Source of the DNA: Vicinamibacterales bacterium | Lineage (GTDB): Bacteria; Acidobacteriota; Vicinamibacteria; Vicinamibacterales; 2-12-FULL-66-21 | Length of the DNA stretch: 64,000 nucleotides | Reading direction: 5' to 3' | Assembly (NCBI GenBank): GCA_035699745.1 | Contig: DASSPH010000104.1 | Span: 1-64,000 of the forward strand | In this document: in pieces, positions 41,564 through 59,913 of the stretch | Position numbering within the stretch: the first letter of the stretch is position 1 | Layout of the letters: each line of letters starts with the position of its first letter | Position numbers and translations under genes: made by a program | Notes under the pieces: generated by a model | The model's input: only the letters and a program-made list of their open reading frames with translations | What the model was told of the DNA's origin: nothing | Database searches by the model: none

Positions 41564-41614
41564 TTCGTGCATAAGACGTTGCAGCGCGCCGTTCGGTTGG
41601 CGGGGTTCGGAATG

Positions 41615-41690
41615 TGGGAATTTGGAAATCTGGAAATGTGGAAATCTTCTCGTAGATTTCCGAATTTCCAAATTTCCCAATTTCCAAATC
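41615..41690. repeat. AT-rich palindromic intergenic repeat (copy 2)
   Basis: Tandem GGAAATnTGG-type units on the left (GGGAATTTGGAAATCTGG, 41616-41633) are mirrored on the right by AATTTCC units. The core is a perfect hairpin GGAAATCT (41640-41647) / AGATTTCC (41654-41661). It shares GAAATCTGG and GGAATTT-like words with the spacer at 37041-37138. It lies before the small gene at 41714. Confidence 0.85.
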
Positions 41691-53437: not shown

Positions 53438-54310
53438 ATGACGATACGTTCACGAACTGTTCTCGCGGCGCTGCTGCTGCTCCTCGCCGGCCGTCCCGCG
53501 GCGGCCCAGACATCCGAGCCCGCTCAGGCCGCCCAACCCACCCAGCCGGCGCAGCCGGCGGAGCCCGCGACGTCCGATCCGGACCGCCGCGTCGATCCGC
53601 TGCAGCCCGATTTCAGCCTGGCGGCGTTGCCGACCACGCTGCGGGTGCCGCAAGGCAAGGGCTCGTTCCGCGTGACGCACCGCTTCACGCGCTCGCTGGG
53701 GCGCGGCGACTTCGGCGACCTGCTGAGCGACTTCTTCGGCTTCGACTCCGGCGCGCAGATCGGCCTCGAGTTCCGGTACGGGCTGCTGCCGGGAACGCAA
53801 CTCGGGGTGCACCGCACCAGCGATCGCACCATCCAGATCTTCGGGCAGCAGAGTTTGCTGCGGCAGGCGCCGGACGGGCATCCGATCGGCCTCGACGCCA
53901 TCGCCACGCTGGAAGGCACCAACAACCTGCGCGGCCAGCGCTCGTCGGCGATCGGGCTGCTCGTGTCACGCAAGGTCGGACGGATCGCGGCGCTGTACGC
54001 CGAGCCGATTTTCGTCGTCAACAGCAGCCCGTTCGACGAAGGGGACAACGACACCCTGATGCTGGGCCTGGGCGGGCGCGTGAGGGTCCGCCCCGCGCTG
54101 TATCTCGTCGGCGAGATCTCGCCGCGGCTCGCCGGCTACGACCCCGGCGTCAGCCAGGCGAGCTTCGGGATCGAAATGCGCTCGGGCGGGCACACCTTCC
54201 AGATCAACGTCTCGAACGGCATCGGCACGACGCTCGCGCAGGTCTCGCGCGGCGCCGTCGACAACAACTCCTGGTTCATCGGCTTCAACATCGCAAGGAA
54301 GTTCTTCTGA
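53438..54310 (+). CDS. DUF5777-family beta-barrel protein
   Basis: A 290-residue outer-membrane protein. The signal peptide (TVLAALLLLLAGRPAAAQ) is followed by a Pro/Ala/Gln linker (TQPAQPAEPATSDPDRRVDP). The DUF5777 core shows GKGSFRVTHRFTRSL, DFFGFDSGAQIGLEFRYGL, SRKVGRIAALYAEPIFV and GGHTFQINVSNGIGTT, with the ending WFIGFNIARKFF. The family is found in Bacteroidota and Acidobacteriota near cytochrome or copper-protein genes, function unknown. It is 115 bp after the sigma-54 activator gene, probably under the -24/-12 promoter, and 2 bp before a cupredoxin gene. Confidence 0.9.
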   Translation: MTIRSRTVLAALLLLLAGRPAAAQTSEPAQAAQPTQPAQPAEPATSDPDRRVDPLQPDFSLAALPTTLRVPQGKGSFRVTHRFTRSLGRGDFGDLLSDFFGFDSGAQIGLEFRYGLLPGTQLGVHRTSDRTIQIFGQQSLLRQAPDGHPIGLDAIATLEGTNNLRGQRSSAIGLLVSRKVGRIAALYAEPIFVVNSSPFDEGDNDTLMLGLGGRVRVRPALYLVGEISPRLAGYDPGVSQASFGIEMRSGGHTFQINVSNGIGTTLAQVSRGAVDNNSWFIGFNIARKFF

Positions 54311-54312
54311 CC

Positions 54313-54720
54313 ATGAAACTCTTTCGCCATGCGCTCATCGGTTCGGCGGCGGCGGTCCTGATCGCGTCGTGCGGCGGCTCACCCACATCCCCCGGAGGCG
54401 CGACCGTGCGCGACGGCGGTGCCGGCGGCACGAGCGGCGCGACGGTCACCATCACGTCCGCCGGGGTCAATCCATCGACGGTCACCGTCGCCGTCGGCCA
54501 GACCGTGACCTTCGTGAACAACGACAGCCGCGCGCACGAGATTGCGTCGAACCCGCATCCGCAGCACGGCACGTGCCCGGGCATCGAGGCGGGGCTCGGC
54601 ACGCTCGCGCCCGGCGCCACGCGCACGACCCGCATCTTCGCCAACAGCGGCAGCTGCGGGTATCACGATCACCTGAACGACTCGAACAACAGCCTGCGCG
54701 GCACCATCAACGTTCAATAG
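54313..54720 (+). CDS. Cupredoxin (plastocyanin-like) lipoprotein
   Basis: A 135-residue lipoprotein. The signal ends in LIASC (MKLFRHALIGSAAAVLIASC), then a Gly/Thr-rich linker. The cupredoxin fold (VTITSAGVNPSTVTVAVGQT; VTFVNNDSRAHEIASNPH) has candidate copper ligands His (AHEI), Cys and His (GSCGYHDHLND). No Met is seen at the usual fourth position. The ATG lies 2 bp after the DUF5777 stop, so they are co-transcribed and probably work together at the outer membrane. It carries copper in the envelope. Confidence 0.9.
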   Translation: MKLFRHALIGSAAAVLIASCGGSPTSPGGATVRDGGAGGTSGATVTITSAGVNPSTVTVAVGQTVTFVNNDSRAHEIASNPHPQHGTCPGIEAGLGTLAPGATRTTRIFANSGSCGYHDHLNDSNNSLRGTINVQ

Positions 54721-54831: not shown

Positions 54832-57800
54832 ATGCGCAGCGTGCTTGCGTCGCTTGCATTCGCGGCGTGCTCCGCCGCGGTCCTCGCCCAGGTTCCCGGA
54901 CGCAACGTCAACATGGTGTCGGGGACGACCTCTCCAGGCGGCGACCCGTACCTGCAGCGTCAGAACGAGCCGTCGATCGCCGCCTCGACGCGAAACCCGC
55001 TGCACCTGCTCGCCGGGGCCAACGACTACCGCACCGTCGATCTGCCCGGCCTGCCGAACAGCAACGAAACCGGCGACGCGTGGATGGGGGTGTTCAAGTC
55101 GTTCGACGGCGGCAACACGTGGCGCAGCACGCTGATCCCCGGCTACCCGCAGGATGCGGGCAGCACCTCGCCGCTCCGCGCCTACTCCGCGGCGGCGGAT
55201 CCCGTCGTCCGCGCCGGCACGAACGGCCTGTTCTATTACTCAGGGATCGTGTTCGACCGCTCGACGCCGGCGAAGAGCGCGATGTTCGTGTCGCGCTTCA
55301 TCGACAACAACAACCAGGAAGCGGGCGACCCGATCGTGTTCCTCGGCACGTCATTGATCGCAACCAATGACGGCACCGCGTTCATCGACAAGCCGTGGTT
55401 CGCCGTCGACGTCCCCCGCACCGGCGCGCCGACCTGCACCATCAACACGTCGCAGAAGAGCCCGACCGCCACCGATCCGAACCGGATCATCCACACCACG
55501 CAGTCGTTTCCCGGGGGCGCCGCCTACGCCGTCTTCAGCCTGATTGTCGAGACCGCCGCCGAGACCCGCTCGCAGCTGTATTTCTCGCGCTCGCTCGACT
55601 GCGGCGCGACGTGGAGCCCGCCGCAGCAGATCAGCTCGAGCGCCGATCCGATCAACCAGGGCGGGACGATGGCGATCGATCCGCGCAACGGAACCATCTA
55701 TCTGGCGTGGCGGCGCTTCACCGCCGACGGCACCGACGACTCGATCATGGTGGTGCGGTCGCTGGACCAGGGCCGCAAGTGGGACCCGCCCGGACGCGCC
55801 CGCCGCTTCCCGCGCGGGAGGAAGGTCGGGCTGACCAGGGAGATCCACGGCAAGAGGTTCACCCAGCCGACGGAGCTCACCGATCTGGCGTCGCTCGATC
55901 AACGGACCGAGACCTACCAGTTCCGCACCAACGCCTATCCCTCGATGACGGTCGACGGCAGCGGCCGCGTCTACGTCGTCTGGTCGGAACGCGGCTTCGC
56001 GCCGCTCAATACCGATGCCGATGACGGCGACGCGCGGATCCTGATCGCGACCTCCACCACCGGAACGACGTGGACGGAGCCGTCCACCGTGGCGAACGAC
56101 GCGCTGGCGGGACACCAGGTGATGCCCTCGCTGAGCTTTGCCGGCGGCAAGCTGATGGTCGGGTACTACGATTTCCGCGAGGACGTGTCGCTCGTGTTCC
56201 GCAAGTTCGTCGACGAGACGTCGGCGATCGCGATCGCCAACAAGCGGCACACGGTGGACGTCCGCGCCGCGATGGCGGATCCTGCGGCGGCGCCGGCGTT
56301 CCATCCCTCGGTCCGCGTGTCGGAATACCTGATGGGCAGCCGCCCCGGCGCCGGGCCGCGGCCGGTCGAGCAGCTGCAGTTCAACCCGCCGAACCTGAAG
56401 CTGTTCAAGCTCGGGACGGTGCCGTTCATCGGCGATTACATCGACCTCGCGCCGTCGCCGTCGTTCGTGCCCGCCGCAGGAGGCGGGTGGGCGTTCAACA
56501 CCGCGCCCGCGAGCTCGCCGCTGTTTCACCTGGTGTGGACCGACAACCGCGACGTGGTGCCTCCGGCGAACGGCGACTGGACGTCGTATACGCCGCCGGG
56601 GTCGACCGGCGGCCCCAGCTCGTTCGATCCGACGCAGACGCTGCCCGTGTGCATGCCGGGACGGGAGGGCATGCGCAACCAGAACATCTACACGGCGCGG
56701 ATCACCGGCGGCCTCGTCGCCGGATCGCCGGGCAACACCAAACCGCTCAGTCCGCTGCTGCCCCGCGCGTTCGTGGTGTTCGCGCAGAACGCGACCGACG
56801 TCTCCCGCAGCTTCCGCCTGACGATCGAGAACCAGCCGGCCGGTGGCCGCGCGTCGTTCCTCGAGACACCGCTGCCGCCCTACGACGCGCAATCGCCGCC
56901 GCCGCTGACGATCCTCGACGTCATCGTGCCGGCCCGCTCGACGGTGGCGCGCAACGTCTACGTCACGTCCACGGATCCGCACGCGCAGGTCCGCGTAGCG
57001 GTGAAGGAGACGGGCGCCAGCGGCCAGGAGCTGCCCTCCGGCCTCGGCAGCACCGTCATCCTCAATCCCGACATCAGCAACCCTGACATCAGCAACCCGG
57101 ACATCAGCAATCCGGACATCAGCAATCCCGACATCTCGAACGCCGAAGTAGCGAACCCCGACATCTCGAACCCGGACATCTCCAATCCGGACATCAGCAA
57201 CCCTGATATCAGCAACCCGGACATCAGCAATCCGGACATCAGCAACCCCGACATCTCGAACGTGCAGGTCGCGAATCCGGACATCAGCAACCCGGATATC
57301 AGCAATCCGGACATCAGCAACCCGGACATCAGCAACCCCGACATCAGCAACCCCGACATCAGCAATCCGGATATCTCGAATCAGTCGCTGACCGACACGT
57401 CGTGGACCGTCACCAACAACGGCAATACGACGACGTCCTACTCGGTGCAGCTGCTGTTGAACGGCGCGCAGCCGGCGCCGGACCAGGTCGCGATCCAGCT
57501 GGTCCTGCACAAGGTGTACACCACGCCGGTGGCTGTGAACTGCACGCTCGCCCTGCACGCGCACAACGTGCTGCTGGCCAACATCACGCGTCCGCGGTTC
57601 CTGACCTCGACACAGCCTGGCGATCCCAACGTGCAGGATCCCAGTGCGGCCAACGCGACGCTGTGGCTCGCGCCGGGTGAGACGGCGAAGATCACGCTGC
57701 GGGTGATGGACAAGAACCTGTCGGACGGCATCACGTTCGACGCCGTGCAGCAGGTGACGCCGGCCGTGGTCGCGCAGGCGCTCGACGTCAGCCTGGTCAA

Positions 57801-59913
57801 CGGCACGCTCGTCGTCGCCCCCGCCGTCGAAGTCGCCGTGCCTCCGGCGATCGACATCGCGTTCGGCGCGCTGCCGCAGAACGCCGCCGCGGGAGCCGCC
57901 CTCGGCCAGGTCGGCGTCACGGTGACGGACCCGCAGGGAGCCGTCGTCCCCGGCGTGGTCGTCGCGCTCTCGGTGCACACCGTCCCCGGCGACGCGCAGG
58001 TCGGACCGACGCTGAACGCCGTCAGCAACGCGAGCGGCCAGGCGGTGTTCAACCTCAGCCCGCTGCCCGCCGGCCGCTACCGCCTCGAGGCGGTGGTGCA
58101 GGCGATCGGCTATCCGCTGACGACCGGGTTCAGCGACTCGTTCGTGATCTACCCGGGTGTCCTGCAGTGGGCCGTCGACGCCGGCGGCAACGGCAACTAC
58201 TACGAGTACGTGCGCGACGGCGGGCTGACCTGGGAGGCGGCGCGGACCGCGGCGGCGGCGCGCTCGCACGCGGGGTTCAGCGGGCGGCTGGTCACCGTGA
58301 CGAGCGCCGCCGAGAACGCCTTCGTGAACGCCCTGCGCGGCGAGGGAGATCTGCGCGCCTGGATCGGCATGCACGATCCGGACGGCAGCGGCGACGCCGG
58401 CTTCGCGTGGATCAGCGGCGAGCCGCTCACCTACACGAACTGGGCCGCGGGCGAACCGGACAATCCCGGCACCGAGTTCTTCGTCGAGATGTCCGCCGAC
58501 GGCACCTGGAAGAACAGCGTCGCGCTCGACGGCGCCCTGCCGACGCTCGGCTACCTCGTCGAATATGCGGTCACCGGTTCGACCTTTACCGTGACCAGCA
58601 CCGCTGACGCGGGCGCGGGCACCCTGCGCCAGGCGCTTCTCGACGCGAACGCGAACGGCGCCTCGAAGGACGCGATCGTGTTCGACATTCCGGACGCGGG
58701 TCCGCACATCATCTCGCTCAGCACCCCGCTGCCCTTCATCACGCAGCCGGTCGGCATCGACGGGACGACGCAGCCGGGCTACTCGGGCGTCCCGCTCGTC
58801 TTCATCGACGGCGCGGATGCGGGACCGGCGCCGGGCCTGCGGGTCGAGGCGGCGAGCACGGAGATTCGACGGATCGGCATCATCGGGTTCACTGCCGGCC
58901 CCGGCATCCAGCTCTGGACCGGCGGCAATGCCGTCGTCCGCGGCAACTACATCGGACTGACCGGCACGGGTCTCGCGACCGGCAACCAGATCGGCATCGA
59001 CGTGCACGGCGCGGGGCACCAGATCGGCGGCAACGGCGCCGAGGATCGGAACGTGATCTCGGGCAACAACCTCGGCATCTTCCTGCAGTCCGATTCGGGC
59101 GGCGCGACGATCATCGGCAACTACATCGGCACCAGTCCGAACGGGACGTCGGCGGTGCCGAACATCACCGGCATTCTGGCCGACGACACCAGCGGCCACG
59201 CGATCGGCGGCGGGGCGCCGGCTGACGGCAACCTGATTTCGGGCAACGGAGACGTCGAAATCCAGGGCAACGGCATCATGCTGACCAACGCCAGCGGAAA
59301 CAGCATCCGCGGCAACCTGATCGGCGTCGCCGCCGACGGCACGACGGCGCTGCCGAACACCGGCAACGGCATCCGCGCCACCGGGGCGTCGGACAACAAC
59401 ACCCTGGAAACCAACACGATCGCCTTCAACCTGCGGAACGGGGTCGAGCTGAACGGCGTGGGCAACGCGGTGAAGCTCAATTCGATCTTCGGCAACGGCC
59501 TGCTCGGGATCGATCAGGGGGGCGGCGGCGTGACCGCGAACGACGCGGGCGAGGCCGACGGCATCCAGAACTACCCGGTGCTCACGTCGGCGCAGGCGCT
59601 GCCTGGCAGCTTCCGGGTCACCGGCACGTTCAGCAGCAGCGCGTCGACACTGTTCGAGATCCGCTTCTTCGACAACGCGACGTGCGATCCGTCCGGGTTC
59701 GGCGAAGGGCAGCGGCAGGTGGGCGTGACCGACTTCCCCACCAACGCGGACGGCAACGGCGTGTTCGACATCACGTTCCCGTTCGCCGTGCCGGCGGGGC
59801 GGGCGCTCGTGGCGACGGCGCGCAACTGGGCCTCCAGCAACACGTCGGAGTTCTCCCAGTGCGTGATCGTACAGTCACCGGAGCCGCCGGCCCCGGGCGG
59901 CGCCGTGCGCTAG
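54832..59913 (+). CDS. Giant secreted protein: sialidase-like region, pentapeptide array, C-type-lectin domain, beta-helix
   Basis: A 1693-residue exported protein with a signal peptide at 1-19. Residues about 25-560 resemble sialidase/BNR-type propeller repeats (VFKSFDGGNTWRSTLIPG; YFSRSLDCGATWSPPQQI; VVRSLDQGRKWDPPG). Residues 745-849 are 21 tandem pentapeptides. A Big/transthyretin-like region covers about 1010-1095 (GVTVTDPQGAVVPGVVVALS). Residues about 1111-1247 match a C-type-lectin-like domain (RAWIGMHDPDGSGDAGFAWI; YTNWAAGEPDNPG) but lack disulfide cysteines. Residues about 1250-1600 are right-handed beta-helix repeats (RNVISGNNLGIFLQSDSGGA; ATIIGNYIGTSPNG). GGGAG precedes the ATG. 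Likely surface-exposed or secreted; substrate unknown. Confidence 0.9.
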   Translation: MRSVLASLAFAACSAAVLAQVPGRNVNMVSGTTSPGGDPYLQRQNEPSIAASTRNPLHLLAGANDYRTVDLPGLPNSNETGDAWMGVFKSFDGGNTWRSTLIPGYPQDAGSTSPLRAYSAAADPVVRAGTNGLFYYSGIVFDRSTPAKSAMFVSRFIDNNNQEAGDPIVFLGTSLIATNDGTAFIDKPWFAVDVPRTGAPTCTINTSQKSPTATDPNRIIHTTQSFPGGAAYAVFSLIVETAAETRSQLYFSRSLDCGATWSPPQQISSSADPINQGGTMAIDPRNGTIYLAWRRFTADGTDDSIMVVRSLDQGRKWDPPGRARRFPRGRKVGLTREIHGKRFTQPTELTDLASLDQRTETYQFRTNAYPSMTVDGSGRVYVVWSERGFAPLNTDADDGDARILIATSTTGTTWTEPSTVANDALAGHQVMPSLSFAGGKLMVGYYDFREDVSLVFRKFVDETSAIAIANKRHTVDVRAAMADPAAAPAFHPSVRVSEYLMGSRPGAGPRPVEQLQFNPPNLKLFKLGTVPFIGDYIDLAPSPSFVPAAGGGWAFNTAPASSPLFHLVWTDNRDVVPPANGDWTSYTPPGSTGGPSSFDPTQTLPVCMPGREGMRNQNIYTARITGGLVAGSPGNTKPLSPLLPRAFVVFAQNATDVSRSFRLTIENQPAGGRASFLETPLPPYDAQSPPPLTILDVIVPARSTVARNVYVTSTDPHAQVRVAVKETGASGQELPSGLGSTVILNPDISNPDISNPDISNPDISNPDISNAEVANPDISNPDISNPDISNPDISNPDISNPDISNPDISNVQVANPDISNPDISNPDISNPDISNPDISNPDISNPDISNQSLTDTSWTVTNNGNTTTSYSVQLLLNGAQPAPDQVAIQLVLHKVYTTPVAVNCTLALHAHNVLLANITRPRFLTSTQPGDPNVQDPSAANATLWLAPGETAKITLRVMDKNLSDGITFDAVQQVTPAVVAQALDVSLVNGTLVVAPAVEVAVPPAIDIAFGALPQNAAAGAALGQVGVTVTDPQGAVVPGVVVALSVHTVPGDAQVGPTLNAVSNASGQAVFNLSPLPAGRYRLEAVVQAIGYPLTTGFSDSFVIYPGVLQWAVDAGGNGNYYEYVRDGGLTWEAARTAAAARSHAGFSGRLVTVTSAAENAFVNALRGEGDLRAWIGMHDPDGSGDAGFAWISGEPLTYTNWAAGEPDNPGTEFFVEMSADGTWKNSVALDGALPTLGYLVEYAVTGSTFTVTSTADAGAGTLRQALLDANANGASKDAIVFDIPDAGPHIISLSTPLPFITQPVGIDGTTQPGYSGVPLVFIDGADAGPAPGLRVEAASTEIRRIGIIGFTAGPGIQLWTGGNAVVRGNYIGLTGTGLATGNQIGIDVHGAGHQIGGNGAEDRNVISGNNLGIFLQSDSGGATIIGNYIGTSPNGTSAVPNITGILADDTSGHAIGGGAPADGNLISGNGDVEIQGNGIMLTNASGNSIRGNLIGVAADGTTALPNTGNGIRATGASDNNTLETNTIAFNLRNGVELNGVGNAVKLNSIFGNGLLGIDQGGGGVTANDAGEADGIQNYPVLTSAQALPGSFRVTGTFSSSASTLFEIRFFDNATCDPSGFGEGQRQVGVTDFPTNADGNGVFDITFPFAVPAGRALVATARNWASSNTSEFSQCVIVQSPEPPAPGGAVR
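57064..57378 (+). repeat. 15-bp tandem repeat encoding 21 NPDIS-type pentapeptides
   Basis: 315 bp of in-frame 15 bp units. The order is five NPDIS, NAEVA, seven NPDIS, NVQVA and seven NPDIS. Codons for Pro, Asp and Ser vary between copies while Ile is always atc, so the amino-acid pattern is better conserved than the DNA. It lies inside the 1693-residue protein. Confidence 0.97.

Follow-up and report, generated by a model that had tools for sequence, protein, structure and literature searches.

Bacterial fibrillar adhesins combine variable adhesive domains with repeat stalks, built of stacked domains, that serve as spacers. Elastin-like pentapeptides, (VPGXG)n, form long uniform arrays with a five-residue period, proline as the second residue and an expected turn at Pro-x, and Asp-box proteins are recognised by the motif S-x-D-x-G-x-x-W. 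In the turns of pentapeptide-repeat proteins, the fourth residue contributes a backbone NH, which proline does not have. These proteins (PF00805; MfpA, Qnr, NP275 and Rfr) place Ala, Ser, Thr, Val or Cys at i-2, Leu or Phe at i and Gly or Arg at i+2. In Qnr, the turns are made by residues i, i+1, i+2 and i-2, and activity is destroyed by proline at i, i-1 or i+2, with i-2 not among the positions tried in the part of that report drawn on here (PMC2964730).

The window, meaning the whole 64,000-nucleotide stretch of DNA that was analysed, encodes a large protein in which a five-residue array lies between two Ig-like domains, with the following features.

54832 to 59913, + strand: open reading frame of 1693 residues, secreted, with an N-terminal signal-like stretch MRSVLASLAFAACSAAVLAQ (signal peptide read by eye)
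54919 to 56706, + strand: Asp-box β-propeller-like region, ends approximate (sub-threshold BNR_2 match, Asp boxes and alignment)
56746 to 57063, + strand: Ig-like domain 1, its last strand STVIL directly before the array (AlphaFold2 model)
57064 to 57378, + strand: main pentapeptide array of 21 units (sequence and Tandem Repeats Finder; homologous arrays in relatives)
57139 to 57153, + strand: landmark unit NAEVA, NAEVY in many relatives (comparison with relatives)
57259 to 57273, + strand: landmark unit NVQVA, NVRVA-like in relatives (comparison with relatives)
57385 to 57774, + strand: Ig-like domain 2, TDTSWTVTNNGNTT ... ATLWLAPGETAKITLRV (AlphaFold2 model)
57589 to 57654, + strand: loop of Ig-like domain 2 ahead of strand ATLWL, the site of a second unit copy or short array in some relatives
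57883 to 58122, + strand: Big_1 / CarboxypepD_reg-like domain, sub-threshold (Pfam search)
58276 to 58515, + strand: Lectin C-type domain (PF00059, E 6.4e-08, 33.7 bits, exceeding the cut-off of 22.6)
58888 to 59496, + strand: parallel β-helix (NosD-like) region (PF05048, E 4.7e-06, over the cut-off; TIGR03804 sub-threshold)

The N-terminal half resembles Asp-box / BNR propeller proteins (PF13088) in three readable Asp boxes (SFDGGNTW, SLDCGATW and SLDQGRKW) and in a weak match to Pfam BNR_2 at residues 229-349 (E 4.3e-05), and differs from them in that its 23.4 bits fall under the curated cut-off of 31.4; the propeller region is conserved in a 24-row alignment of relatives (A2). AlphaFold2 models both Ig-like domains, the first with pLDDT of about 90-97 (model residues 11-110) and strands at 16-115, the second with strands at 223-352 and pLDDT mostly 82-94. 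Comparison of the model with folds in the PDB returned generic Ig-like matches alone, of which one has E<=0.001 with an rmsd of 24.8, and no family is assigned. Modules C-terminal of the arrays vary among members of the family and include lectin C, Big_3_5, He_PIG, MBG_2, cadherin-like and β-helix domains. Directly upstream of the reading frame lie genes for a DUF5777 β-barrel protein (53438-54310) and a small cupredoxin-like protein (54313-54720).

The array occupies residues 745-849 as consecutive in-frame pentads in the order (NPDIS)5 NAEVA (NPDIS)7 NVQVA (NPDIS)7, that is, 19 NPDIS units, one NAEVA and one NVQVA. The coordinates, register and count of 21 given in the first-pass annotation all hold on re-reading, as does its remark that synonymous codons vary: the NPDIS units use AAC/AAT, CCC/CCG/CCT, GAC/GAT and AGC/TCG/TCC, with ATC throughout for Ile, a mix equivalent to random draws from the usage of the gene itself (observed/expected 1.01). 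Tandem Repeats Finder scores the array at 321 for a period of 15 and 482 for a period of 120, by far the highest of its 19 rows for the window. It also lists two adjacent AT-rich 8/16-bp tandem repeats at 41611-41689, in a window that is otherwise GC-rich. NAEVA and NVQVA are landmark units, neither noise nor decayed copies, because relatives carry NAEVY-like and NVRVA-like units at corresponding places.

Relatives were collected by two routes. Scanning genome contigs for the pattern of three NP[DE]I units returned 50 loci, 31 of them belonging to the family of the window protein (L049 recognised by eye, the other 30 by script); the 19 left out are 17 short or stop-broken look-alikes together with L043 and L050. 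Short NPEI-type runs at L011, L022, L031 and L038, in unrelated bacteria and with stop-broken frames or very short reading frames, look like non-coding 15-bp DNA repeats. The second route was a profile built from alignment A2, which covers the end of the propeller and Ig-like domain 1, ahead of the array; a single row of the alignment (L023) includes nine array residues. Across 396 genomes of the phylum this profile finds 21 genes, spread over 19 genomes; in the order it matches 25 of 162 genomes and adds another 18 genes. Array-rich L094 and L097 were dropped from the first phylum search as other proteins. This search, almost free of array sequence, recovered 39 genes, each with a five-residue array in the same position, some contigs ending inside it. 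A plasmid collection searched with the propeller part gave no match. The two routes together yield 52 non-identical members, many from draft or metagenome-assembled genomes; the contigs of L033 (Acidimicrobiia) and L040 (Gammaproteobacteria) may be misbinned. Within the limits of the library searched, none of six doubled units occurs in any paper, and no paper combines 'pentapeptide repeat', 'Acidobacteri' and 'sialidase'; single units returned, among the matches listed, unrelated words alone.

The 52 members use 26 unit types at this site. NPDIS is the unit of seven members, NPDIA and NPDIE of six each, NPDIT of five and NPDIQ of three; NPDIV, NPDIN, NPDVE and NPALL occur twice each, and 17 units, such as NPFVI, NASLF, SPQLG and YPRIE, once each. 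Nearly all relatives follow the pattern [N/S/A/Y]-P-x-[I/V/L/F]-x. Counted by position in 49 members (L121, L163 and L168 have too few exact units, and the units of L023 and L157 were read from the whole sequence after a script had set their array starts wrongly), position 2 is proline in 46 and position 4 is Ile, Leu, Val or Phe in all 49, with glycine found twice at position 5 and never at position 3. Most members contain landmark units that follow x-E-[V/L/T]-[Y/H/F]. L163 (G384:C98) has the unit PTRRH, with arginine at the usual aliphatic/Phe position. The genome of the window encodes a second member (G000:C47:11572-12684; L102, L147) with the unit YPRIE at the homologous place, and two members about 13 kb apart on one contig (L174 and L175, G013:C7) have NPDIS and NPDVE; the paralogues of genome G196 agree, with NPALL in both.

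Each array is nearly uniform within its protein and differs between proteins. When units sharing fewer than three residues with the protein's own unit are set aside as landmarks, units of one protein agree at 96-99% per position across the 49 members, position 5 included (96%). The corresponding chance of agreement between proteins is 0.85, 0.88, 0.58, 0.55 and 0.15 for positions 1 to 5. Proteins with propeller identity of at least 70% share an identical unit in 11 of 11 pairs, and those at 55-65% share one in 22 of 128. On a propeller tree of the 52 members, a quick tree with many weak branches, at least 30 unit changes are counted, with positions 1 to 5 changing 5, 3, 10, 12 and 24 times. 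Relatives below about 65-70% propeller identity have often switched unit, mostly at position 5. Alignments across the arrays are uncertain.

The DNA beneath these uniform peptides is close to randomised at synonymous sites. When codon mismatch between units is divided by the value expected from the rest of the same gene, the median is 0.96 (range 0.66-1.46) in 43 arrays, and the median pN/pS inside 49 arrays, landmark units included, is 0.17. In most of ten close pairs of relatives, orthologous units have no clear codon identity above that of other offsets; the flanks, measured in eight pairs, have a codon identity of 0.56-0.74 at identical residues. Codon identity lends no support to the idea that recent tandem duplication or gene conversion made the arrays uniform, and the first-pass preference for selection over fresh duplication agrees with these comparisons. 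Some later block duplication does occur, because five of 38 arrays have a best multi-unit codon lag with p<0.05 where about two are expected, L029 (p 0.003 at lag 7) and L052 (p 0.007 at lag 9) being two of them. The NPDIN arrays of the relatives L035 and L052 have a clear three-unit codon period in common, a higher-order DNA repeat within an otherwise codon-randomised family.

Serine codons suggest how the arrays may have grown. Thirteen arrays have at least ten units with serine, and eight of these encode it by a single codon class, TCN in every case, with AGY encoding 26-46% of Ser in their flanks; this fits an array that grew out of one unit and was then conserved for a long time. Serines of the window array are mixed (14 AGY and 5 TCN), and several of its TCN units adjoin landmarks, as they do in its nearest relative (L172), as if interiors turn over faster than landmark neighbourhoods.

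A further observation concerns Ig-like domain 2. In the loop ahead of strand 'NATLWLAPGE', 12 of the 45 members with enough sequence carry one to five copies of their own unit, while trials with the units of other members gave a copy there in 15 of 1894 cases. L183, whose loop contains seven copies of SPQLG, is not counted among the 12, since the script read these copies as the main array; the window protein has no second unit copy in its loop (57589-57654). Codon identity between main and second array equals or exceeds that within the main array in six of seven comparable members and is lower in L158; in the larger arrays both identities are at the randomised-codon level, so that the match is one of amino acids and not of recent DNA copies, and no DNA-level similarity between the two arrays beyond background is seen in the seven members.

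With about an even chance of being right, the array is read here as a spacer between domains of a secreted adhesin-like protein, extended and making one turn per unit, which arose by amplification of one unit and has since been kept uniform by selection. The spacer would be placed in the order propeller, Ig-like domain 1, array, Ig-like domain 2 and variable adhesive modules. Because nearly all relatives follow [N/S/A/Y]-P-x-[I/V/L/F]-x, each unit probably makes one proline-anchored turn, which a short extended stretch would follow, and the whole array would then form a long non-globular stalk with one turn per unit instead of a pentapeptide-repeat β-helix. In this history of 'amplify, then hold', a single 15-bp unit would have multiplied in the gene, sometimes also into the loop of Ig-like domain 2, after which purifying selection would keep the amino acids of the unit while synonymous sites randomise. 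The weak point is that a plain flexible spacer explains neither about 20 near-identical units with saturated synonymous sites nor the matching unit in the second loop.

A bolder reading addresses exactly that matching. It proposes that identical units stack as a ladder in an ordered, solenoid-like fold unlike that of pentapeptide-repeat proteins, with the second array docked beside the main one; it is a tentative reading and probably incorrect. Its premise, that all units of one protein, second loop included, must match since they stack or pair, so that the set switches together while the DNA diverges, is likewise rather doubtful. Such a fold would account for near-perfect uniformity despite saturated synonymous sites, for the own unit in the second loop without DNA-level matching, for position 4 being aliphatic or Phe in all 49 members counted and for landmarks at corresponding places, and differing units in same-genome paralogues (NPDIS/YPRIE in G000, NPDIS/NPDVE in G013) are expected if matching operates within the protein. 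Strands A and E of an Ig domain in its usual order both begin at one end of a single sheet, an arrangement that would set both arrays side by side. However, proline in almost every unit costs one backbone NH per unit, L163 places arginine at the hydrophobic position (this member is outside the 49), and in 33 of 45 members no exact copy of the protein's own unit was seen in the second loop.

Structure prediction also weighs against order. With a 28-row alignment, AlphaFold2 gives the array pLDDT of 38-46 and no secondary structure between flanking domains mostly at 82-97, and residues 735-860 run alone as a single sequence give pLDDT 57, pTM 0.12 and again no secondary structure; both runs have low confidence in the array and stand without a genuine pentapeptide-repeat positive control. 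In the part of one study drawn on here, AlphaFold2 returns high-confidence β-solenoids for 32 out of 78 perfect repeats of random sequence, whose units were 5-30 residues long, and is unconfident on the near-perfect natural repeat of mucin 1 (PMC11795689). Because it over-predicts β-solenoids for perfect repeats, the missing solenoid is informative, though not proof, and the single-sequence run is weak evidence on conformation. If true, the stacked fold would add a new repeat architecture, one whose five-residue step has proline at its corner.

A third reading treats each unit as a putative partner-binding site in a multivalent recognition array that would change as a whole with its partner. 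Arrays that are uniform per protein, stable among close relatives and switched among distant ones, next to adhesin-like modules, are what it would predict, but units as chemically dissimilar as NPDIE, NPALL, NPFVI and PTRRH occupy the same site, and it is quite unlikely.

The first-pass annotation had proposed a pentapeptide-repeat protein with a right-handed quadrilateral β-helix, a reading now highly improbable. The resemblance is one of register: a period of five over 21 consecutive pentads, D-I-S placed like [DN]-[LF]-[STR], and landmark units with Ala or Val at i-2. The array also matches solved pentapeptide proteins in phmmer (E 4.8e-11), and the NCBIfam model penta_Alr5209 gives the window protein a sub-threshold 20 bits against a cut-off of 125. 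The phmmer similarity is not counted as kinship because a permuted nonsense unit, DPNIS, scores better than NPDIS against the same proteins (E 3.9e-21) and NPALL also matches them; NSDPI, in which the D/N-aliphatic neighbourhood is broken, has no match to them. Register alone is thus insufficient for labelling a period-five array with D-I-S as a pentapeptide repeat, since DPNIS, a nonsense unit, also passes this sequence test.

A PF00805 profile search of the genome of the window gave no match at E<=0.01, whereas nine of 14 control genomes have matches and 41 of 119 sampled genomes of the phylum contain genuine repeats. From 30 PF00805 loci of the same phylum, 26 repeat stretches with 689 units were taken as reference. 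These have Ala (69%) at i-2, Leu (81%) at i and Gly (43%) at i+2, and the residues of the window array at the same positions, Pro, Ile and Asn, make up 1.6%, 0.9% and 3.8%. Position i of the array is hydrophobic (Ile in 19 and Val in two of 21 units), though Ile is rare there in genuine repeats. In place of a small residue (A/C/S/T/V) at i-2, 19 of 21 units have proline, against 11 of 689 genuine units; the doubt that the first-pass annotation itself had raised over this proline was well placed. Proline at i-2 would remove a turn-forming backbone NH, and the inactivation of Qnr by proline at neighbouring positions, i-2 itself being untried in the part drawn on (PMC2964730), also speaks against the helix. 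Copy number, proposed as a check, has no preference for whole four-unit coils, the remainders 0, 1, 2 and 3 modulo four occurring in 12, 12, 14 and 11 of 49 relatives. A confident prediction of disorder or polyproline-like structure had been named as what would speak against the helix; β structure is indeed absent from the array in both AlphaFold2 predictions, but at low confidence rather than as confident disorder.

Neutral DNA slippage, filling a tolerant loop as its sole role, is very improbable: several close relatives do differ in copy number by one or two units and occasional codon blocks occur, but synonymous codons are randomised while amino acids are conserved, and the array is present in 39 of 39 genes recovered with the region preceding it.

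The family amounts to a natural experiment in which one homologous site and a constant period are combined with 26 units, each nearly uniform per protein and encoded by random synonymous codons. DNA homogenisation and selection for uniformity, which in repeat proteins are usually hard to tell apart, can here be separated, and the family supplies what would be a natural set of pentapeptide spacers. Among known systems, pentapeptide-repeat proteins are alike in their tandem pentads with an aliphatic residue per unit and in D-I-S as a counterpart of [DN]-[LF]-[STR]; the window array differs in its Pro, Ile and Asn and in having neither a Pfam match nor a predicted helix. Elastin-like (VPGXG)n is approached in the proline at position 2, found in 19 of 21 window units and in 46 of 49 members, but positions 3 and 5, glycine in elastin, are Asp and Ser in the window, and the array is bacterial, lies between Ig-like domains and has a lineage-dependent unit. 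The stalks of fibrillar adhesins are closest in the proposed role, since the window array would likewise be an inter-module spacer in a large secreted protein whose adhesive domains vary; it differs from them in being a five-residue array instead of stacked domains, with a unit that is specific to lineage.
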